The position numbers and the translations under genes were made by a program. From contig JALLLS010000085.1 of assembly GCA_025094145.1 (NCBI GenBank), positions 62,001 to 126,000 on the forward strand: a stretch of 64,000 bases of DNA, given 5' to 3'. Position 1 is the stretch's first letter. Each line of letters opens with the position of its first letter. The notes under the pieces were generated by a model. That model saw only the letters and a program-made list of their open reading frames with translations, was not told the origin of the DNA and did not search any database. This DNA comes from Spinellus fusiger (taxonomy: Eukaryota; Mucoromycota; Mucoromycetes; Mucorales; Phycomycetaceae). Positions 966 through 62,976 of this stretch are shown here, in pieces.

Positions 966-3891
966 ATGACCAACGTCCTTTCAAAACTAGCCACGGTACC
1001 ATGGCAACAGTCTCTTTTGCTATTATTAAAGCAGTGTGCGGGCACTTACAGCACACACCGCCTGAGTGTTCAGCGCTCCATTCTCCTCTTCTTCCTACTG
1101 CGTTTTGTGTTTTCTGTCCGCCGCCTTTTCCGTAACTATCACCACCAAACCAAACCAAAAGCAGCAGGTGTGGATCCACAGACCACGGACAAACGCAAAG
1201 TGGAGGTGGGTTGGAGGTAGTATACACATGGCCTCTGTTCTTACTCGAGGAAGTTGTTGTTGCTACTGCTGCTGTTGTTGTTGTTATGGGGGAAAAAAAA
1301 AGGTGGATGTTCATTTTCTACGCCAATTTGTGCGTGTTCTGAGGATTGTTGTGCCTGGGGTCAGGTCCAAGGAATTTGGCATGTTGGCTGTGCATTCTGG
1401 GTTCTTGGGTAAGTCATTGACGGTGTTGCTAGGGTAGTGTTCATGAGCCTCTAGTGTTTAGAACGATCTTGTCAGTGTACATTGCTTCATTGGATGGCCG
1501 TATTGTCAGTGCATTGGTAACCCTCCATAGAAAACACTTGCGGGTGGAGAGGGATCAAGGCGACTCATTGCCTCATGTTGATATAGGTGCAAGGGAAAAT
1601 GAAGGAGTTTTTGTATGGGATTGTTTGGTGGATGGTGGTGGCAATTCCTGCCACTTATACCAACAGCATGGTAAATCATCCTCCTCCTCTTCCTACTGTA
1701 GTATGACTATTTGCTATTGCTATGACTTACTTATTCCTGTGCTGGTTAGTTGACATTTATGCAAAGCAAATTGGCCATTCAATTCCGCACACGCCTCACC
1801 CGACACACCCACGACCAGTACCTCAAAGACATGACATTCTATGCTGTAGGCAATCTCGACGACAGAATCAAAAACGCAGATCAGTGCATCACAGTAGACA
1901 CCAACAAATTCTCCCAGTCCCTGGCAGAACTCTACTCTAATCTCGCCAAACCCATTCTAGATGTGTTCATCTACAACTACCAGTTGGTACAGAATGTTGG
2001 ATTTGAGGGTGTGTTTGTATCGAGTATGATTGTCCAGCTGTCCTCTGTTGCCATGCGGAAATACACACCTTCTTTTGGTAAGATGGCAGCGGAAGAGCAA
2101 CGTCTGGAAGGAGAGTTCCGCTTCCGACACTCGAGAATCATTGAGAATGCAGAGGAGATTGCTCTGTTCAATGGACAGCAGATCGAGAAGGAGGTGCTGG
2201 ACCGTAGCTATTATGCACTGATCAAGCATATGAACCGCATCTTCCGTGTGCGTATTCCTCATGGCATGTTGGAGGACTTTATTGTAAAGTACTTTTGGGG
2301 TGCGTGTGGGCTTGCTCTTTGTGCCTTGCCAGTGTTCTTCAAGGTGCCTGGAGTGAGTCTTGGGGATGCAGGAGCACGCACAGAAGGTAGGGTTTCTAAC
2401 AGTCGCAGTGGGTGGTAGTCTCACACCAGGGATATTTCTATAGGATTTGTCACCAATAGACGCTTGTTGATGAGTTCTTCGGATGCAGTGGGTCGTATCA
2501 TGTATGCCTACAAGGAGATTGCTGAGTTGGCAGGCTACACCACACGTGTAAGTGAGGAGCAAGTGAGGAGCAAGTGAGGAACAAGTGAAAAGGGGCTAAG
2601 AGCAAGAGGTATAGGTGGTGGATTTGCTGGATGTGTTTGAGGATGTCAAGGCAGGTCGATTCCAGAAGAACCTTGTCTCTTCCATTTCCACTGACAGTAA
2701 TGCCAAATCATTACTAGGAAGAGGCACTGTGATTGAGAGTGAAAACATTGAGTTCTCTGACGTACCTATCGTCAGTCCCAATGGTGATGTTCTTGTTCCT
2801 AAACTCTCTTTTCATGTCAAGCCTGGGGTAATGTCCATGTTTGTGTTTGTGTTTGTATGAATCTCACTCTCTGCCTTCAACAGATGCATTTGTTGATCGT
2901 GGGTCCTAATGGGTGTGGCAAATCCTCCCTCTTCCGTATCCTGGGTGGATTATGGCCAGTGTATGGTAGGCACCCCTTCATCTTGGGCGGCCTTATTCTT
3001 ATCTTTTGTGGAATCTAGGCGGTACTCTCCATAGACCCAGCCATAAGGATATCTTTTATATTCCTCAGAGACCCTATCTCTCTCTTGGCACCCTCAGAGA
3101 TCAGTAAGAAATAACACACTACAGACACAGATATTCACTTGTTTAGGATTCTTTATCCTCATACTGTGGAAGAAATGCACAAACGTAAGCACCGTAGTTC
3201 ATCGACAAGACTCATTTCTTATGTTTAGGCAATATTACGGATGACCAACTCTTGGATATTCTTGAGGTTGTCCAGATCAAGCACATTGTGGAGCGTGAAG
3301 GGGGCTGGGATGCTGAAAAGGAATGGACCCTGTCCCTCTCTGGTGGTGATAAACAGCGTGTAAGTCCCTCTCTTCCAGCATGAGACTGATATTGTATCTT
3401 TAGATTGCCATGGCCCGTCTCTTCTACCACTCTCCTCGTTATGCTATTCTTGATGAATGTAACTATTGATTATCTACAGCCAGAAGACTCATAATTTAGG
3501 TACAAGTGCTGTGAGCATGGATATTGAGAAGATTATGTATACACATGCAACAGGTAGAAATGGAGTCCTATAGAGTAGCATGGCACAGTGTCACTCATGC
3601 ACATAATATAGCCCTTGGTATTTCTCTCCTCACCGTATCTCACCGCCCTTCCCTATGGAAATACCACAACTACATCCTCCAATACGATGGTCAGGGTGGT
3701 TATGTATTCACCAAACTCGACGCAGAGAAACGTCTTGCCTTGCAGGAGGAAAAGACAGCCGTAAGTGTACCCCTTCTCTCTTCTCTCTCTCTTTCCTAAC
3801 ACACCCATAGATCGAGCAACGCCTATTGGAGATCCCAAAACTCAAGGCTCGCTTAGAAGAACTCAAGGAAATCCAGCAGGAGAAGCCCTAA
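966..3891 (+). CDS. Peroxisomal ABC half-transporter, ABCD family (Pxa1/Pxa2/ALDP-like)
   Basis: Fifteen exons join in frame: 966-1205, 1303-1408, 1455-1516, 1587-1670, 1750-2386, 2444-2547, 2615-2827, 2884-2965, 3019-3103, 3147-3184, 3229-3359, 3404-3458, 3500-3553, 3612-3760 and 3811-3891. The product is about 706 aa, the usual size of an ABCD half-transporter. The transmembrane half contains [16 protein letters not shown] and the family EAA-like loop [18 protein letters not shown] (near residues 297-314). The nucleotide-binding domain has Walker [10 protein letters not shown] (about 489-497), signature LSGGDKQR (about 587-594), Walker B AILDEC and the switch histidine in TVSHRP. Family knowledge: ABCD dimers import long- and very-long-chain acyl-CoA into peroxisomes for beta-oxidation. 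All introns are GT-AG and short. The start has no competing upstream in-frame ATG. Whether it is the Pxa1-type or Pxa2-type subunit is undecided. Confidence 0.93.
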
Positions 3892-4527
3892 TCTATGTCT
3901 TAAGAAAAAAAAAAATAAAAAAAAATAAAAATGCCTGTGTTCTCTATCTCTATCTATTGCTTATGCATGGATTCTGTTGAGACTATGCCGGAGATAAAAT
4001 GTGTCCGGTGATTATCTCTAGAATTCCGATGCTTTCAGTCACACTGGTCCGAGAAACGACCCCGATGTGCCGGAGATGCACAAACAAGAGCCACCAAAAT
4101 AAGCATTGTCGATGTGCACGCCAAAGACTCCCTCTCTTTCCCCACCAAAGGGTATGTAGTGTGTTATTTTTTTTCTATAGGCAGGAAAACACCATCAACA
4201 GCGACAAAACAAACATCCAACAACAACAAAAAAGAAGTATAAGAAGAGAGAAAGGAGAGATGGATGGATGAAAGGACAGATAAGAGAAGAAGGGAAAAAG
4301 GAGAAAAGAAAAGAAAAGAAAAAAAAAAAACAGGAAAATAGACTTGAGCTTTCTATATGTACACACCTATATGTATATATATACACCTATAGGTGTGTAT
4401 GTACAAATTATATACAACATGTCGGCTATGGAAAGAGTGTCTTTTCTCTTTATTATTATTATTATTACTATCATTATCTGTGCATAACTGTTCTTCTAAC
4501 CAAACTGCTCTTGTTTAGAACATCGCC
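3892..4527. promoter_or_regulatory. Intergenic region and 5' leader of eL34, with probable leader intron
   Basis: The stretch contains the 3' flank of the ABC transporter gene and the promoter of eL34. The bases just before the eL34 ATG read as a pyrimidine-rich tract ending in TTTAG then AACATCGCC, which looks like a 3' splice site in the 5' UTR. Leader introns are common in fungal ribosomal protein genes, so I infer one here, but its donor is not assigned. A purine-rich tract (about 4220-4330), a TAT microsatellite (about 4452-4466) and the palindrome listed separately also lie here. Confidence 0.4.
4359..4404. repeat. Imperfect inverted repeat with perfect inner palindrome
   Basis: The arm GTACACACCTATA at 4359-4371 faces TATAGGTGTGTATGTAC at 4388-4404, which is its reverse complement apart from a few inserted bases. 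Within it, ACACCTATAGGTGT at 4383-4396 is a perfect 14-bp palindrome. It lies about 125 bp upstream of the eL34 ATG. It could be a dimeric protein-binding site or simple AT/CA-rich slippage DNA; the sequence alone does not decide. Confidence 0.55.
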
Positions 4528-22080: not shown

Positions 22081-22604
22081 TAAGAAAAAAGGAAGAAAAC
22101 TGTAACAAGTGTCTCATGTAAGATACACACCCAAAGATGTTTGAGATATAAAAGGAAATATACCGAGAATTAAACAGCAATATTCTTATGATTGGCTAAT
22201 GTGTTTAAAAGAGCTTTTTCGATGTGTAAATGGGCTGTTTCAAACTCTACTTGCCTGTTTAAGCAGTGACGATTGACTTTGCAATTAAAAAGTATAGAAT
22301 TGGCTGTAAAGACAAGAAATAGAACAAGAATCACCCCAAAATTACAACTCAGTCACTGCATTTATTGTTTAACATAATGTGTTATCCTTAAGCCCACAGT
22401 ATTTACAGCGTAACACTGCTTAAGAAAGATGTATTACAGAACTTATAGAGTTAACTCTAGTGGTCATTGTTCATAAAATAGAACCAAATACAATTATATT
22501 GAGAGCTTTATAGCCATTCATTGACTCAATATTCATAATCACTTCAACAGTCTCATTGTAACTGGTATTAACAATAGTACTTAATGATTACAAAGTATTG
22601 TTTG

Positions 22605-22722
22605 ACTTGTGGATTTCTACTTGTGAATTCTACTTGTGAATTTGACTTGTGGATTTCTACTTGTGAATTCTACTTGTGAATTCTACTTGTGAATTTGACT
22701 TGTGAATTTGACTTGTGAATTT
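22605..22722. repeat. Nine tandem ACTTGTG(A/G)ATT units
   Basis: The 11-base core ACTTGTG(A/G)ATT recurs nine times with 13-14-base spacing, forming units ending in CT or TG. The large copy has only one such unit (about 39650). The array lies exactly where the transposase region was deleted, so it expanded in or with the deletion derivative. Confidence 0.85.
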
Positions 22723-22994
22723 TATGAGTGAAGGCTAGTGTATACGCTACCAGTATATATAGAGAGAGAAATTATTATTTGTTTTGATAATCCCGTCCTT
22801 TTGTTATTTACTATACTATCCATACAACTTAACGCCCAAGTACTCGTCAAGATGAGCATAAATAATCAAGGTAATGTGCCATTATTAAAAAAGAGAAACA
22901 ATAGAAAGAAGTTGTAGGCACCACCAAGGACTATTCTAGTGATAAAAAGGTAAATAGTGTCTTCATCTGGGCTTGATCTCATTGTATTTTAACA

Positions 22995-23252
22995 CTTGTC
23001 GTGAAGACATTTTCCATATTTGGATGGATCACTTCTTTTGGAACGAGCACTCATTTATTACCAAACTAAGAAGGAGACTTTATTGAATATCAAGGGATGT
23101 CGATAGTTCATAGCATTTTCGATAGTTAGCCCCTGAATCTATACGATTAGAAAAGTATAAAACACGTAGTAATTCCATTTAATAAACAACAGAGTTTAAC
23201 TACACGTTCTACTGTTTCGTATACCTTTGGCCTAAAAACCCAAAGACGACAC
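22995..23252. mobile_element. ~260-bp MITE, copy 1
   Basis: The segment begins CTTGTCGTGAAGACATTTTC and ends CCTAAAAACCCAAAGACGAC, with short inverted tips (TTGTCGT / ACGACA). A near-identical segment occurs at 40290-40550 but at a different position within the host transposon, which shows independent mobility. There is no coding capacity. The flanks contain TCATTGTATT on both sides, offset by a few bases, which may be a target duplication. Confidence 0.75.
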
Positions 23253-23786
23253 ACTCATTGTATTGTTATTAGGCAAGTAAAGACACCTTTCAAGTCAGTC
23301 TTAGGTGGTCTTCTATACTGTCTAGGGTCTCTAGGGTATACTCCTGAGCATATTTATCTATCTCCCAAGGATAAAGCACAAAGCTTTTAGGGTGTAGATT
23401 CTATTGCTATGAGGGAATGCACTTGGGCAGTAGCTATAGTCATAATATAGTATTAGCTACATTATAATAAACAATTTTATTCATAAACAATATATTTTAC
23501 TGATAATACAATTTGATATTGAGGTATCCACAAAAAGAAATATTATTTTTGATATCCGCAAACCTTTCGTTTTAAACATAGTTCCATAAAAGGCAATAAA
23601 TTTTCGGTTTTAAAAGGCAAATATATCATCGCTTAAAGGCCAGAAAAATCTTTGGGTGTGTAGAGTTTGAAACTGTATATTTACACAGCGAAAAAACATT
23701 TTTAAACAACTTAGCCAATCACAAGAATGCTACGATTTTATTCTTAGGATATCTTCTGATATATCTCAAACATCTTTGGGTGTGTA

Positions 23787-29830: not shown

Positions 29831-30738
29831 TACCCGCACAGAGCACTTTTGTAGATATAACAAAAGAAAGCATGACTACAAAGATACACCTAGAACCAAA
29901 AAAAGGTCCAAGCCTTCTTATTTATCCTTCTCCTCCCCATTTATCGCTGGAGCCTCGGTTGACTAACTGACAGAAACCCATGATACAGGTAAACTATCTA
30001 AAAAGTGATAATGAAGTGTATCTTATTCGATTTTGTCATGCAAAAAGATATTATAATGTCTAGTAGTATAATTACTAACTAATAGGATTTTATGTATATC
30101 ATATTGTTTACAACACCTACTTTGTCTACAAGGTATGTATAAAATATGATAGACTTTATAATATATGTAATCAGATTAAATAATTATTAATAGTATTATA
30201 AGTGTATATAAATACATTTCATTTAACTAAATTTCTCTCTCTCTCAAGATAGTTGATATTTCTTAGTTTTGAATTCAAGTGTCAATATAATTCTTAAAGA
30301 TCCTCTAAAAAACATTGTAGTCTTTTTTCTGAAACAGTGCATATTGCTTCCAGAGATGGTGTAAAGTGATCCGAAGAAAGTAACTCACTTTTAAAAAAAC
30401 ACACACTTTCCTTTCTAGACTCATACTTTATCTTGATATTTTTATGGCTTTATGAATTCTTTAAATGCAATGAGTACGGTACCAATCAATGTCTATGAAG
30501 TCCAAACATATGTATTCTATGATCTATTAACATAATAATATTTTTATTTCTCTTGCCATAATTTAAAGTGGTTGTTTATTTAAGCATTTTGAAGAGAAAA
30601 AAAAATGACAAAATGATAAATTGGTTTTCTTATGAATCCAGAGGAACCTTATTAAATGTCTAAGCAATTCTTGTAGACATATTTTTATTTTATTTTATCA
30701 CTGAACTTATTATGTCTGACTCTGTTATTGACAATAGA
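29831..30738. other. AT-rich DNA, no gene seen
   Basis: A stretch near 30400-30470 resembles the 3' flank of the ~500-aa family gene (about 25980-26060: CACTTTATCTTAATAG and CTTTATGAATTC versus similar words here), which may be a scrap of another family copy. Otherwise nothing is recognised. Confidence 0.3.
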
Positions 30739-36315: not shown

Positions 36316-36699
36316 TAGGTGGTGGAAGTAAGGAGTTGATATAGCTACGTTTGAATGTAAATAACCACTCCGGAGTTTAAATAAGCTCCAAGTACACACC
36401 AGGAGATTTTTGGGATATAAAAGGAAATATTCTGAGGATAAAATCATAATCTTCTTATGATTGGCTAATGTGTTTGAAAATGCCTTTTTGTTGTCCAGAT
36501 GGTCGATTTCAAACTCTGCCTGCCTATCAGAACAAAGATAATTGACCTTGCAATTAAGAAGTATAGAATTGGCTGTAAAGACAAGAAATAGAACAAGAAT
36601 CACCCTAAAATTATAACTCAGTCACTGATATTCCTCTCTTAGCATAATTTGTTATCCTTAAGCCCACAGTATTTGCAGCATAACAATGTTTAAAAATAT

Positions 36700-39613
36700 T
36701 TATTGTGGGACTCGCACTGAATTGACTCTAGTGGTCATTGTCCAGAAGAGAGAGCCAAACTTGCTCACATTGAGAGAAGTATAGCCATTCATTGACACAA
36801 TGTCCACAACTTCTTCAACAACAACATCTTCAAGCTCTACCTCAATAGTAGTGCTCAAAGAAAAGATAACATTGGAAATAATGTTATCCTTTACGCCCAA
36901 GGCAAAAAGAGAGGAAAAGTTGTGAGTTTCTTTGGCAGAAGCCAGATGTTGTGGGTGGGTGGGAATGTTTTGGCCAGTGGCAAGATGGAAATTGTATGGT
37001 ACAATAACCATATTACCCTTCTCAATGGCAACAATCTTACCAAAGATGGGAGAAGCACCAGAAGAGAAAGAAAAAAGACCAGCCAGACCAACAACAATGC
37101 TTTTTGAGCTGCTGTTGTTATCAACAAGCTCACGGGAAATGGTGAGGGGGCGCATCTCTTGAGAGAGCTTGACCTCAGCTCCAGCAGTGAGCAGACCATG
37201 GTAGCCAGGCACATGCCAGTACCCACCTTGGAAGACGTGTACCGACATGTACTTCTTCCCAAAGGAAACAGCAACATCTCGAGAGGGCGAGCGTCTGTTG
37301 GTAAAGATTATCCTTTCACGGATAAACTTGTTGAATTGTTCGCCTCTCTCTGTTTCATAGTGAACGGGAGGGGCAAAGCGAGAAATGTCTTCACAAAGAT
37401 GGCTCAGGAGATGCATCTTCAGAGTGCTGCCAGTCTTTGGTTTTTTTGTAGACTTGCCAAGTGCTGCCACCTTATCATACTTGGCAATTGCCCCGGTCAG
37501 TTCTCCAACAACAGACTCCACATTGTCTAGATAGACATGCAAAGATGTCTCGACTCTTTGCATATATAACAGCGACACAAGAGAACCAAGTTTGACAAAG
37601 CAATCAAAAATGATTGCCTTGGTGCTGTTCATGGTAATGAGCCGATCTTGAATCAAATGATTCAAGATGGTGGGCATCTGCTGCACAATGGTTTTATAAT
37701 CTCTTCCGAGATATGAGCCACAACGGCGGAAAGGAGTGTGGTGGTTTCGTTTGAAAGCTTTGCTGTTGTAATTGAAGAAGCTTTCTTCTAAGTGCTTCAC
37801 TTCTGCTTCAGTTAAGAACGGCACCATGCCAATCACAAGGCTCTTGGCGACACCGAGGAGGACAGTGTGGAGTATCTCCACTGGGCAATCCTTGGAGGGA
37901 TCCCACGACTGCAAGGACAAAAGTGCTTCACCGCCAGTCAACTTGCATCCAGTGCTGGTGTTGGTTTTCAGACTGGTGTTGTTGGGGTTGTTGATACAGT
38001 GTTGGTGCATTTCCACCAACTCTTCTTTTGTTCGGGCAGGGGCATCACCTTCCTGCTCCACTCCTCCACTTCCACGTTCATTTATCCAATGGCATTTCCT
38101 GCATGGGAGTCTAGCCTTGGGACCAAGACTACATGCAATCGCCGCATGCATGGGATTGTCTGCCATGATGAAGTGAAGAACACCAACAACAAGGACAGAC
38201 TCTCCAAACTCCACATCGAACATCACCATGCCTCTCTCCAACGCCTTGAGGTCTTTTACAATGTCAGGAAGCATTTCAACTGCTGAAAGCTTGTTACTGG
38301 TGCAGAGAAAGAACATGTTCTCAACCCCATTCTGCTCTTTGAAGGGCATAGCAGCAGGGGACAGCACCCAACTCTCAAACTTGTTCCACTTTTTCGTGGT
38401 ATTGCCACTTGTGTCGTCCGAAAACAAGTTCATAGGCACAATCTTGACTGGCATGAACTGTCTGTTAGAATTGATGGCGGCTCTCTTGAGAGGATGGTGG
38501 GTGGTAGAGTTGGTGTGGGAGTGAGAAGGAAGTTGGATATTCTTTACAATATCTAGTATTACAGTGCTGCCAAGAGAGAAACCAGTTGCCTCCTCGTAAG
38601 CCTCAGCCATCAGTCTACCATGTTGCATGAAGAAAGAGGCAAGCTTGTATGTTGTTGTTGTTGTTGTTTCACCGGGAGAGGCGCACACTACATCTCCAAC
38701 CCAGAGATCAACAGAAGTATCATTGATGGTAACAGTGACCATGGGGTGCTGAAACAGCGGGTGAGTTCTCCACTTCTCTCCCTGAGTTACAGAAACTCAT
38801 TGATTTGGAGTTCTGTCTGGCAGGGCAGAGAGTATCTTTGTCTTGAGGGGGTTGGCAGTGAGGAGCCTCAAATGCTCAGAAGGCTTGTTCATAGAGAACT
38901 GGTGGATGGTGGTGGTGGGGGGCAAGCCTTTGCAGGTTTCAACCACTGTAACATCATGGGTGGTGGTGGGGAACTTGGGGACATGGCTTCTCACCCTCTT
39001 CTCGAGGTTAAGAACCCTGTTTAAAGCAGGGACTTTCTCCTGAGGATTGGCAAGACAAGCCTCTCTCACATCTTTGCACAAGGTGATGATCTCCCCTGCA
39101 AATCTTCTCGAGATACGTTCCTCATTTTCAGTAAAGAAACGATACATGATCATCTCCAGCTTTGTCGAGAATGGGAAGATATCATCTACAAAGGCAGCCT
39201 CCTCAAAGGTGTTGTTGCTGCTGTCAAAATTATCTTCCCCGGTAACCCAAAGAGGTTCTTCTTCAAGAACTTCCTCATCTTCAACAACTATCTCCTGGTC
39301 ATCATCACCTTCCTCTTCTACACGGAAGACTGTGGTGATGGCGGGGAGAGGTCTGTGAACAATAGCAATAAAGCATGATTAGTTTGGTTCTTATTATTCT
39401 ATGCCTCTATTTCTACGATAAATACCCAGAAGAAGACTCAGGCATGGAACTATTCATAGTAGAGAATGAGCAACATTACTTTTAGACTTGAGATTATCCT
39501 TATATTTTATTAGAAAAGTGTGATTTCAGATTTCCCTTTGTTTTGAATGTTTTTTTGCAGACAGTGCAGGTGGGAATTTCACTTTTCTTGAAGTTGATGG
39601 TGGTGAAAGACAT
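36700..39613 (-). pseudogene. Plavaka/CMC-like transposase with zinc finger and one in-frame stop
   Basis: The frame from 38742 to 36700 is open for 680 codons. It is continuous upstream to beyond 39153 except for one TGA at 38799-38797 (between TPNQ and VSVTQGEKW), and the acidic stretch before that extends to about 39357. A separate start at 39613 encodes a C2H2-like finger (CTVCKKTFKTKGNLKSHF), typical of an N-terminal transposase finger. Core motifs include WRTHPLF, LWVGDVV, LFSDDTSGNTTKKWNKFESW, HFIMADNPMHAA, CRKCHW, and CPVEILHTVLLGVAKSLV, which I recognise from fungal Plavaka-type (CMC superfamily) transposases. The intron joining the finger exon to the rest was not resolved. With one nonsense codon this is a recently dead gene, or one read through. 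Confidence 0.75.
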
Positions 39614-40289
39614 GGTAAGGAAGATTTCAATATAAGGAGTGAGTTATTTGACTTGTGAATTTTGACTTAATTAATTATAGGAAAGTAGCGGCTAGAGTGT
39701 ATACTTCACCAGAATAAAGATATTTTTTATTTTTTGGTCTGTTATTATTTTGTTATTTCTTGCACTGCCCCTACAACTCAACGCCTAAGTACTCATCAAG
39801 ATGAACATAACTGAGCAAGGTAATGTACTATTATTAACAAAGAGAAACAATAGAAGGAGGTGATAGACACCACCAAAAGCTATTCTAGTGATAAAAAGGT
39901 AAGCAGTGTCTTCATCTGGGCTTGAGTTCAATGTAATCCACAAGACATAGTACTGACTCTTCTTCTAATAGATGATATATGACTCATTATTCTCAAGACA
40001 GGTGTTAAGTACAAGGTAAGCATATTATCTCTCTTTATTGAATCATTACTAATACACTCTTCTGTTATTAGATAAGTTAAGACTCTTCTTAAGTCAGTCT
40101 CAGGTGGTCTTCTTCCTTCTATACTGTCTAAGGTGTCTAGGCTGTCTAGGGTATACTCCTGAGCATAGTCATCTATCTCGCAAGAACAAAGTATAAGGCT
40201 TTTAGGTTGTGGAATCTTTTGCTATGAAGGAATACGCCTAGAACAGCAGTAGCTATAGTAATAGTATATTATTAGCTACAGTATTATTA

Positions 40290-40550
40290 GCTTGTCGTGA
40301 AGACATTTTCCATATTTGGATGGATCACTTCTTTTGGAACGAGCACTGATTTATTACCAAACTAAGAAGGAGACTCTATTGAATATCAAGGGATGTCGAT
40401 AGTTCATAGCATTTTCGATAGTTAGCCCCTGAATCTATACGATTAGAAAAGTATAAAAGACGTAGTAATTCCATTTAATAAACAACAGAGTTTAACTACA
40501 TGTTCTACTGCTCCGTATACCTTTGGCCTAAAAACCCAAAGACGACAAGC
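40290..40550. mobile_element. ~260-bp MITE, copy 2
   Basis: The tips GCTTGTCGT (40290) and ACGACAAGC (to 40550) are perfect 9-bp inverted repeats. The interior is nearly identical to 22995-23252. The flanks are TATTATTAG on the left and CTATATTATTATTAG on the right, a possible but low-complexity duplication. The insertion point within the host transposon differs from copy 1. Confidence 0.8.
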
Positions 40551-40823
40551 TATATTATTATTAGCTATATTATTATAATAAACAATTTTATTCATAAACA
40601 ATATTTTTATTGATAATATAATTTGATATTGAGGTATTCCATAAAAGGTAAGAGAATTTTGGATACTCGCAAACCTTTGATTTCAATTACAGTTCCATAA
40701 AAGGCAGAAAATTTTCGGTTTCAAAAGGCGAAGATATCATCGCTTAAAGGCCAGAAAAATCTCTTAGTGTGTAAAGTAACAAATAAAAAGAATCAGGGCC
40801 TTTTAAACAAATGTCCTTCTTTA

Positions 40824-41534
40824 CAGTCCCATGTAATAGGTGACTAGACAAAAGATAAATATTTATTTTTTATTCTTCAAAAATAAAAGAGGTCTTTTTC
40901 TTTTCTTTTATAACTTATTCAAAAGATGACCTCAATCAATAAAAATCAGCCAACTGTTAGCCAAGAACATAAATATAGTCTCATCAAAAGAGAAGAGCAT
41001 GATGTGTTTATTAGAGGTCAAATTATAAGACAATGGAGAAGACATGCTAACTATCAAGGGATTTCTGACGATCTTGACATGCTAAAGAGTACAGTGGGCA
41101 GGATCGTCTTATTGTATAAAAACAAAGGCACAATTCAACTCAGAATACGTACAGGAAGACCTGAAAAGGTTTTATCTACTTCAGAACTGGCTATCGTTTT
41201 GTCTATTCGCAGAAACACTATACAAATAATTGCATATGATTTAAGAAATATGAGTAATGTAGAAGCAAGGTTGTTTGATCTGACGAATCCTATTTTACAG
41301 TTGTGAGCAATGATAAAGAGACTAGAGTGATTAAAGATAAAGACTCTGCTACAAAGCACTGAACAATATTTTTATAATAAGAATGTGGACAATCAGTTAA
41401 AGAACAACTATTCCAAATCCTGTGTTATTCCATTAATCTTTTATTATGAAAATCTTAGACTGATAGATAGACCTTTATTTTTCAAAATAAAATAAAAATA
41501 AAATTGATGTCTACTCACTTATTGTATGGGACTG
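40824..41534 (+). mobile_element. 711-bp Tc1/mariner derivative encoding only an HTH protein
   Basis: The left tip CAGTCCCATGTAATAGGTGA (40824) and right tip TCACTTATTGTATGGGACTG (to 41534) are inverted repeats with few mismatches, and both are flanked by TA (40822-40823 and 41535-41536). The only ORF is the 126-aa HTH protein at 40926. The DDE domain is absent, so this is an internally deleted element, nested inside copy B of the large transposon. Confidence 0.85.
40926..41306 (+). CDS. HTH-only Tc1 transposase N-terminus (intact ORF)
   Basis: The 126-aa product has a first HTH around GISDDLDMLKSTVGRIVLLY, the linker IQLRIRTGRPEKVL containing the GRPrK-type minor-groove motif, and a second HTH-like segment ending NMSNVEARLFDLTNP. 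This is the complete paired DNA-binding region of a Tc1 transposase, followed by a stop. It could bind the element's own ends without cutting; a repressor role is inference only. Confidence 0.7.
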   Translation: MTSINKNQPTVSQEHKYSLIKREEHDVFIRGQIIRQWRRHANYQGISDDLDMLKSTVGRIVLLYKNKGTIQLRIRTGRPEKVLSTSELAIVLSIRRNTIQIIAYDLRNMSNVEARLFDLTNPILQL

Positions 41535-41759
41535 TATATGTGCATAGAAAACCCATAGGATTCACAGTTTCCATTGATAGATATACAAGCTTTATGCTTT
41601 AACACAACTTCTTAGTTTTCAGATCACGGATTGAATCAATGGCATGTAAAACCCAATTATAAAACAGAAATAGTATAAAAAGAAAAAAGGTCAACTCATC
41701 TTTATTTTATTTTCTTCATGGAACCTGCTTTAAAGATGATAGCAATGAAAAGGTCAATC

Positions 41760-42558
41760 ACTGGTATTGAATAGAAGCCGAGTTATCTCTATCAGGACAT
41801 ACATCTTCAACAGTTAATTGTGAAAGGTTTGCAAGATACCTCGAGGAGAGAGCCGTAGTTACCTCAGTATTGCATAACTTTTATTCAAATGAAGATACTG
41901 CTGCTGTGGAAAACCAGAATGTCAATAGCTTGATCCTATTTCTTAGAATGAAGCTTTTGATCTTTATGAATCAGCAACAATCAGACAAACGGCTAGCTAG
42001 AAATCTTTGAAGAAAGTTTGGCGATGGTGCTTTAATGGTGATTGACAATTGGTCTGTAGGAAACACAAAATTCCATGAACCAGTGAGAGGTGTTGGAATA
42101 ACAAGAATGGTGAAGAAAGAAGGGTTCAAGGTATTCCTTATTGATGAGTTCAAAACATCCAGTCTTTGTCCTTTCTGTGAGAACGGTGAGCTTGAGAAAT
42201 TCAAGAAAATGCAAACCCCAAGATCCTTCAGAAGAAAGAAGAACCCCACAGTGACATGTCATGGTCTTTAAAGGTAAAAAGCTTATATATATATATAAAA
42301 AAGTCAAAAAAAAGGAATAAGTCTATTATTATTTTATTTAGGTGAAAAACCCAACAATGTTTGAAGATCATGACCAAAACTGCTGGAGCTTCTGATGAGA
42401 TGATTTTTCAACGCTTTTGGAATCAGGACATGGCAGCAACATTGAACTTTCGTCATGTTCGTTTTTTGGGCTACGAGAAGAAGGCAAACAACCCAAACGC
42501 TTTTGTCGATCCAAGACAGTACAGTCTGTTGGTACCAAAAGAAAGGAATCGCCATTAG
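41760..42558 (+). pseudogene. Fanzor relic 2, cargo of the large transposon
   Basis: The readable order is RLARNL, then KFGDGALMVIDNWSVGNTKF (about 42000-42075), HEPVRGVGITRMVKKEGFKV, FLIDEFKTSSLCPFCENGEL (RuvC-II Asp-Glu plus the first CxxC), RRKKNPTVTCHG, an apparent intron (about 42271-42342; GTAAAA donor, TTTAG acceptor), QQCLKIM, and FWNQDMAATLNFRHVRFLGY (about 42416-42475), the RuvC-III block with Gln in place of the usual Arg in WNRD. Stops in place of Leu and Cys flank the intron, and a TGA lies before KFGDG. The N-terminal and RuvC-I parts upstream are unreadable. This matches the Fanzor C-terminal half closely. As it stands it cannot make a full nuclease. Confidence 0.75.
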
Positions 42559-42864
42559 CTAGTAGTAGTCGATCCACCAAAACATAAAAAAAGAATCCGG
42601 TGTAGTTATCACTGTACTAAACTAAGATACACGTAAGTCTTTTTGGAACCATACTACATTTCTATACTATAATTTCCCCAAAGATGCACCAATACTTTAT
42701 GAAGATAGTGTAGCTATTGCTAGAATAGGCAGACAGAGTTTGAAATTGTTCATTTAGACAGCGAAAATACCCTTTTAAAACACATTAGCCAATCATAAGA
42801 ATATTGCGATTTTATTGTCCGTGTATTTACTTTTATATCCCAAAAATCTTTAGGTGCGTAACTC

Positions 42865-62934: not shown

Positions 62935-62976
62935 TTGACTATTTCCTTTTATATCCTAAAGACCTCCTGGTGTGTA
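62935..62976. repeat. Truncated L'-type terminus of the large transposon family
   Basis: The stretch TTTCCTTTTATATCCTAAAG then ACCTCCTGGTGTGTA matches the outermost ~40 bp of the L' end at 42860 and the inverse of L at 36393 (TACACACCAGGAGATTTTTG). No partner end was found upstream within the window. Confidence 0.55.

Follow-up and report, generated by a model that had tools for sequence, protein, structure and literature searches.

A 64,000-nucleotide stretch of the genome of the mucoromycete Spinellus fusiger (hereafter the window, taken from a 38-Mb assembly of 197 contigs) holds, at positions 36393–42860, a transposase gene and remains of a gene for Fanzor1, an RNA-guided nuclease. Comparison with the rest of the genome points to a CMC-type cut-and-paste transposon family that occurs as sister units with common ends, some carrying the transposase and others Fanzor1, and in which the Fanzor-bearing units in particular are flanked, outside one end, by a short motif that would be the target-adjacent motif of the nuclease. 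We give this reading, that of the flank motif included, a probability of roughly two in three. It departs from the original prediction, made from the letters of the window, in which the whole interval was one transposon with Fanzor as cargo. At the level of the family, Fanzor as cargo of a CMC-like transposon has held up; the presence of Fanzor and transposase in one unit has not, the two genes lying in separate units that have their ends in common.

Sister units with common ends

Core sequences of the two ends of the family, here named L and R, have 703 matches (L, at most two mismatches) and 725 matches (R, at most one mismatch) in the genome and none for the reversed controls, so that the ends recur far beyond chance; cargo was read for a minority of the approximately 700 copies of each end. 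Three units were read whole. Locus L039, on contig C1, runs from R to L over 4111 bp with a single 915-residue transposase frame, while L040 and L041, of 3896 and 3906 bp and also running from R to L, have a Fanzor gene and no transposase. L039 and L041 are 76–86% identical on the R side over two stretches (L039 138–582 and 698–945) and 79% identical over 144 bp on the L side, and nothing else matches between them at an E-value of 1e-3. Both ends are thus common to the two kinds of unit, as expected of an autonomous/non-autonomous pair, and the genes are separate, which identifies the transposase and Fanzor1 as alternative cargoes of one shell. In transposase units (T-units) and Fanzor units (F-units) alike, the gene is read from R towards L.

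Fourteen further F-units with both ends in one locus measure 1.2–2.7 kb. The outer L border is present in 29 of the 30 Fanzor loci fetched (L020 is the exception, its match ending 23 bases before the border), and the left ends of F-units, seen in 21 of 32 loci, read TACACACC...AGATTTTTCTGG or near it, which is the R end reversed. About 0.7 kb of R-side sequence is common to the F-units and the T-unit of the window, and most listed units have the termini CACACC..GGTGTG. Duplication of a TA target is shown for one T-unit by two empty sites, described below, and for one F-unit by one: the two flanks of L011, when joined, align with L025 through the junction at 227 of 273 positions, the empty site reading ...TATCTAC/TA/AT... 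and the occupied one ...TATTTAC/TA/AT... (slashes delimit the TA).

On these grounds we propose that T-units (L–transposase–R, about 4.1–4.4 kb) would supply the transposase, and that F-units (R–Fanzor1–L, about 3.9 kb when whole, many of them shorter), holding Fanzor1 in the place of the transposase and preceded in whole units by a Tc1-like insert, would be moved by it in trans.

Family ends also occur within tens of bases of each other, at L016, L033, L036, 22124–23786 of the window and C127:26407–27739, in the orders L' then L, L' then R, and R then L' (L' being a second, inverted L-type end); this suggests insertion beside older copies or recurrent rearrangement. A further L-type end of the family lies on the minus strand at position 62976 of the window.

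A flank motif of the Fanzor units

The bases directly outside the R-side TA set the F-units apart. The dinucleotide AC stands there in 16 of 21 F-units, 11 of the 16 reading TTAC, as against 3 of 21 T-units, 6 of 35 units of unknown cargo (3/20, 1/8 and 2/7 by sample) and 3 of 29 positions on the F-units' own L side; across the window, AC precedes TA in 5–6% of cases. One-sided Fisher tests give 6e-5 for F-units versus T-units, 2e-5 versus units of unknown cargo, 3e-6 versus their own L side and 1.4e-6 versus all 56 other units, nine of which have AC. In these counts T-units were recognized as such from where the transposase match lies rather than from a reading of each whole unit, the loci L101, L107 and L110 were dropped as having no R end, and L105 as repeating the flank of L096; L099, which has AC but lies at an edge and with three mismatches, was set aside, and counting it in gives 4/22 and a probability of 1.7e-4. 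Among the 35 units of unknown cargo, one (L058/L059, without AC) encloses a transposase match and could count as a T-unit, and some others may carry Fanzor, whose detection is incomplete (89 of 693 candidates scored). F-units are strongly enriched for TTAC/TA and their sisters are not, which argues for a nuclease motif separate from the transposase target.

The position of the motif has precedents. Under the OMEGA model, the motif is found beyond the transposon end that lies upstream of the nuclease gene, and the guide derives from sequence beyond the downstream end (PMC10711439); in the case of SpuFz1, a conserved CA borders the 5' repeat on its outer side, CATA being the tested motif (PMC10432273). 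By analogy with this geometry, the predicted motif of the Spinellus Fanzor1 would be ACTA, often TTACTA, distinct from the transposase's own TA target, and the guide would be the sequence directly outside L. The nuclease might then cut unoccupied alleles bearing the motif, so that the adjoining F-units would be kept or recopied. Since T-units show just TA, preceded somewhat preferentially by C (C at position -1 in 8 of 21), the extra A and T would best be explained as a mark that selection by Fanzor has left. We lean, if by a small step, towards the conclusion that the genome records RNA-guided Fanzor action in nature and that cleavage of unoccupied sites by Fanzor determined which of its copies survived.

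The same flank could instead reflect the target choice of a transposase variant that moved the F-units in a burst, with Fanzor as a passenger. In favour of this, the transposase copies are diverse (most matches are 62–85% identical to the window transposase), C at -1 is common in T-units too, and the F-units could derive from one period. Set against this are, among R ends with inner sequence enough for typing, those of the same, F-like type, in which AC accompanies 14 of 18 F-units and 3 of 20 units not known to carry Fanzor (5 of 22 if two F-like ends beside transposases are added, one of them the edge case L099), as well as the confinement of the motif to the side fit for a target-adjacent motif and the like geometry, with a tested motif, of SpuFz1. 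We regard a transposase variant as an unlikely source of the flank, yet one that deserves real weight. The notion that AC is a property of the R-end type as such was considered separately and rejected: 20 further R ends were taken in list order, skipping ends that had been fetched before, one known Fanzor unit and C2:420, which lies close to the end of a contig, and the F-like ends among them have AC in 1 of 14.

It is very improbable that AC simply represents two extra terminal bases of the F-units, carried along in transposition, as its presence in 16 of 21 of them might imply. The empty relative of the L011 site already carries CTAC/TA/AT (one case), positions -3 and -4 of the F-units follow a looser T/A-rich pattern, and most units with a like R end and no known Fanzor are without AC.

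Several observations weigh against reading the flank as a footprint of Fanzor carried by trans-mobilized units. The flank sample is small; the R end was not seen in 11 of 32 Fanzor loci, which were dropped from the count; and L044, the sole clearly T-like R end among the F-units, has no AC (L033, an F-unit typed T weakly, has it). The joined flanks of 18 F-units, compared with the fetched loci, gave a single junction-spanning match, that of L011, and a genome-wide search with seven of these 18 (40 of 96 candidates scored) yielded none. Every fuller Fanzor copy of the L041 type is interrupted by a frameshift or stop, and an RNA fold of the L end is not conserved by RNAalifold (z of -0.13, -0.53 and -1.73 against 100 column shuffles each). 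PpFz1, the nearest solved relative, has another screened motif, ATN (PMC11423790), and the gene-less 'ghost' elements of Spizellomyces punctatus share the conserved CA (PMC10432273), whereas gene-less units and others without known Fanzor in Spinellus mostly lack the motif.

The window locus

The interval 36393–42860 is two neighbouring units, the second (40822–42860) being the truncated right-hand portion of a distinct Fanzor unit (Table 1). That one transposon extends from L to L' and holds both genes, as originally predicted from the two arms, is almost certainly wrong. The arms themselves are real: L (36393–36530) and the reverse complement of 42730–42860 have 105 identities in 130 aligned positions (81%), and inverted-repeat detection finds the window arms as two inverted pairs. 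They do not bound one unit. An unoccupied copy of the host repeat at C116:49600–49720 joins the flanks of the T-unit with a single TA (106 of 118 aligned columns), and so does another at C109:6430–6530 (91 of 101); these empty sites read ...GCTCCAAG/TA/AAGTAACAAGG... and the window ...GCTCCAAG/TA...unit...TA/AAGTAACAAAT..., the 2-base gap in the alignments corresponding to AA at 40774–40775, absent from the joined query. The two empty sites with a single TA place the right border of the T-unit at R (40773), show that TA was duplicated, and refute an L...L' unit for the window copy, which itself stops at R and has its target duplicated there, the very finding named beforehand as fatal to the single-unit proposal. 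The T-unit is 85% identical to the whole unit L039 across a 3915-bp alignment.

The sequence right of R is host repeat, and C116:49690–49802 matches the window through to 40880. A search with the junction between R and the Fanzor remnant gave 40 scored matches, the window among them, and the window alone spans the R side: C116:49690–49802 starts at query base 42, where the R border has its TA, query bases 42–102 are matched by C109 and C19, and 36 of the 40 begin at base 72 or later, spanning the side of the Tc1-like arm only. According to this pattern, the Fanzor remnant sits in a host repeat joined at the Tc1-like arm, with the T-unit 48 bp away. The pair would have arisen by insertion of the T-unit 48 bp from an F-unit truncated at its Tc1-like insert, an order of events that we infer. 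F-units elsewhere run from R to L, and two of them, read whole, are without a transposase, which also speaks against a composite element.

A second locus, copy A (22124–23786), does have the order L-R-L' reported for it, and a match to C127:27604–27739 across its R-L' junction (76%, about 1.1 kb from an L end) might favour a composite. As proof that L...L' moves as a unit, and hence that L and L' are the ends of one element, copy A was nevertheless rejected, for the target is restored at neither R nor L'; since its right junctions fail to restore the target, it is a rearranged copy.

Table 1. Features of the Spinellus fusiger window, with positions counted from its first nucleotide
Feature	Position	Strand or orientation	Remarks
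Transposase unit (T-unit), complete	36393–40773	L to R	TA at both borders (36393–36394, 40772–40773)
L-type end of T-unit	36393–36530	+	40 of 41 reported matches span 1–138 at 95–100% (40 of 1199 candidates scored)
Transposase, main open stretch, 698 aa	36700–38796	-	In-frame stop divides it from the upstream stretch
Transposase, upstream open stretch, same frame, 193 aa	38797–39378	-	Counterpart continuous in L039
Probable first exon, C2H2 zinc finger (MSFTTINFKK...CTVCKKTFKTKGNLKSHF)	39503–39613	-	Resembles N terminus of Spinellus fusiger protein P0001; exon borders inferred
R-type end and subterminal region of T-unit	40052–40773	-	Also found in left part of Fanzor units
Host repeat	40774–40821		Continues sequence left of 36393; left flank and start of stretch seen beside unit-free TA in L124 and L125
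Tc1-like insert	40822–41536		53-nt inverted arms (75%), Sleeping Beauty-like helix-turn-helix frame; also in whole Fanzor units L040 and L041
Fanzor gene start (MEPALKMIA...), then large internal deletion	41718–41788	+	From translation
Fanzor1 C-terminal pieces, broken	41771–42010, 42011–42271, 42346–42558	+	First RuvC aspartate region deleted
L-type end (L') of truncated Fanzor unit	42725–42860	-	Same terminus in 29 of the 30 Fanzor loci fetched
Copy A, L-R unit lacking both genes	22124–23662		Left border falls on a TA in an abundant repeat
Copy A, L' fragment abutting R	23662–23786	-	Right flank fails to restore target

Transposase of the family

The transposase that had been predicted is present, a large protein on the minus strand (36700–39378, with one in-frame stop), and belongs to the same family as the 915-residue frame of L039. 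Its main stretch matches the genome 74 times (64 of 849 candidates scored), and 16 of 18 relatives found in an alignment search are from Mucoromycota, one being labelled Albugo (scored were the 7991 candidates with the most shared words). The CMCT layout consists of the residues D-D-C(2)C-H(3-4)H-E together with CA..TG termini and short target duplications (PMC12730594). In the window protein the order D-D-C(2)C-H(3)H-E is recognized in DTSGN 319, ADN 403, CRKC 423, HLLGH 650 and TERGE 670; all five motifs are present in 4 of 11 members, the other seven being truncated, short of a part or missed by the regular expression. The family also has CA..TG termini and, within the 2–5 bp range of target duplications in CMC/CMCT elements, a duplicated TA at two sites. 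By its residue layout, the transposase fits the CMC/CMCT group, whose members with short target duplications include Plavaka, EnSpm and ESTA (Kojima 2025, PMC12730594); with ESTA it has in common the 2-bp TA duplication, and with CMCT elements more generally the carriage of a cargo gene, TET/JBP in their case, in several transposon lineages.

The CMC/CMCT part of the original classification thus stands, and a strict assignment to Plavaka does not. A Pfam scan of the window transposase gave no match even at an E-value of 10; the Plavaka profile PF18759 has no match for the window protein, and the best of 11 members reaches 16.6 bits (E-value 0.005) against a cut-off of 26.3. The termini CACACC..GGTGTG differ from both Plavaka types, TGT..ACA and CATCA..TGATG. 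Unlike the CMCT references (PMC12730594), the family is without a Pfam match, and its probable place among them is judged by layout. The predicted fold of the transposase, with a mean predicted local distance difference test score (pLDDT) of 45.7, was too poor for a fold search. One relative, P0010 of Choanephora cucurbitarum, has at residues 988–1031 a very weak match to a Cas12f/TnpB zinc-ribbon profile (E-value 1.6), perhaps by chance or perhaps from an adjoining Fanzor piece fused in annotation.

Fanzor1 and its remnant

The 479-residue frame of L041 is related in sequence to proven Fanzor1 proteins, with E-values of 6.4e-128 and 1.3e-44 for the solved Fanzor1 proteins of Parasitella and Spizellomyces, and 2.6e-7 for that of Guillardia. 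The RuvC D-E-D residues and a C4 zinc finger can be recognized by eye in L040 and L041 (IDPGRRD, LIDEFKTS, FWNRD, CPSC, CKNQQC). A total of 243 relatives of the L041 protein were found; among the 120 listed, those with names are mostly from Mucoromycota, with some from Syncephalis and Coemansia. The mean pairwise ratio of nonsynonymous to synonymous substitution rates (dN/dS) among seven Fanzor copies is 0.45, versus 0.81 in a frame shifted by one, so that constraint probably acted on the gene during its spread.

The predicted Fanzor C-terminal pieces were recovered, on the plus strand of the window (42011–42271 and 42346–42558). The remnant tracks L041 to position 3071 and picks it up again at 4312, and its pieces are 80% identical to L041 residues 313–479 (E-value 1.5e-85); FWNQD stands at the site of the third RuvC residue, and the second pair of cysteines is incomplete. 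The frame in the Tc1-like insert matches HTH_23 (E-value 5e-5) and HTH_SB (9e-5), both below their cut-offs. In whole F-units, the insert lies upstream of Fanzor and has the helix-turn-helix frame, with no catalytic domain seen. On the R side, similarity to the T-unit ends exactly at the start of the insert (L041 position approximately 2157), which may mark how Fanzor was captured.

A second Fanzor1 family, 40–51% identical to the L041 protein, is present in the same genome, and 14 of its loci were fetched (L071–L073, L076–L082, L086, L087, L090 and L091). Two of them have frames of 641 and 663 residues with no stop within the match. The right end of this family is sharp, TATAATATCTAGTA, and a copy of it lies at 29847–30065 of the window.

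Relation to known systems

In the IS200/IS605 elements of bacteria that carry TnpB, an RNA-guided nuclease lies beside one transposon end, the motif lies outside the other, and this motif is the target of the transposase itself; the Spinellus family differs in that its transposase seems to need TA alone. A literature search found no work linking Spinellus fusiger to transposition, or Fanzor to Mucoromycota by that name. Jiang et al. (2023) may list further Fanzor–transposase pairs. A CMC-type Fanzor partner with matching ends and a cargo-specific flank was not met in the parts of the published Fanzor accounts covered here, and the pairing may already be in print.

Fanzor1 within transposons, those of mucoromycetes included, is already known (PMC3627910). 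The closest published parallels are the Fanzor1 elements in DNA transposons of Rhizopus, Phycomyces and Mucor (Bao and Jurka 2013, PMC3627910), some of which, like the F-units, have no transposase and the ends of a transposase-bearing family, MuDr in that case; those elements were filed as Mariner, Sola, IS4, Helitron or MuDr, or left unclassified (MCi-2, MCi-5), whereas the present family is CMC-type. Spu-1, the SpuFz1 element of Spizellomyces punctatus (Saito et al. 2023, PMC10432273), likewise has Fanzor1 between transposon inverted repeats, many gene-less ghosts, and a conserved dinucleotide outside the 5' repeat beside the motif. In the covered part of that account no transposase was found within the Spu-1 repeats; in Spinellus, by contrast, a T-unit with the same ends exists.

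The family bears on what Fanzors do for their transposons; for Spu-1 no partner transposase was found in the portion of the report covered (PMC10432273). The Spinellus family offers a likely partner transposase and, with it, a built-in control in the form of sister units with the same ends and other cargo. It yields a candidate motif (ACTA or TTACTA), a transposase and donor pair, and a route to homing footprints in other genomes. If the reading proposed here is true, the flanks of the Fanzor units would be a natural footprint of RNA-guided Fanzor action, in which the motif of the nuclease is separable from the target of the transposase.

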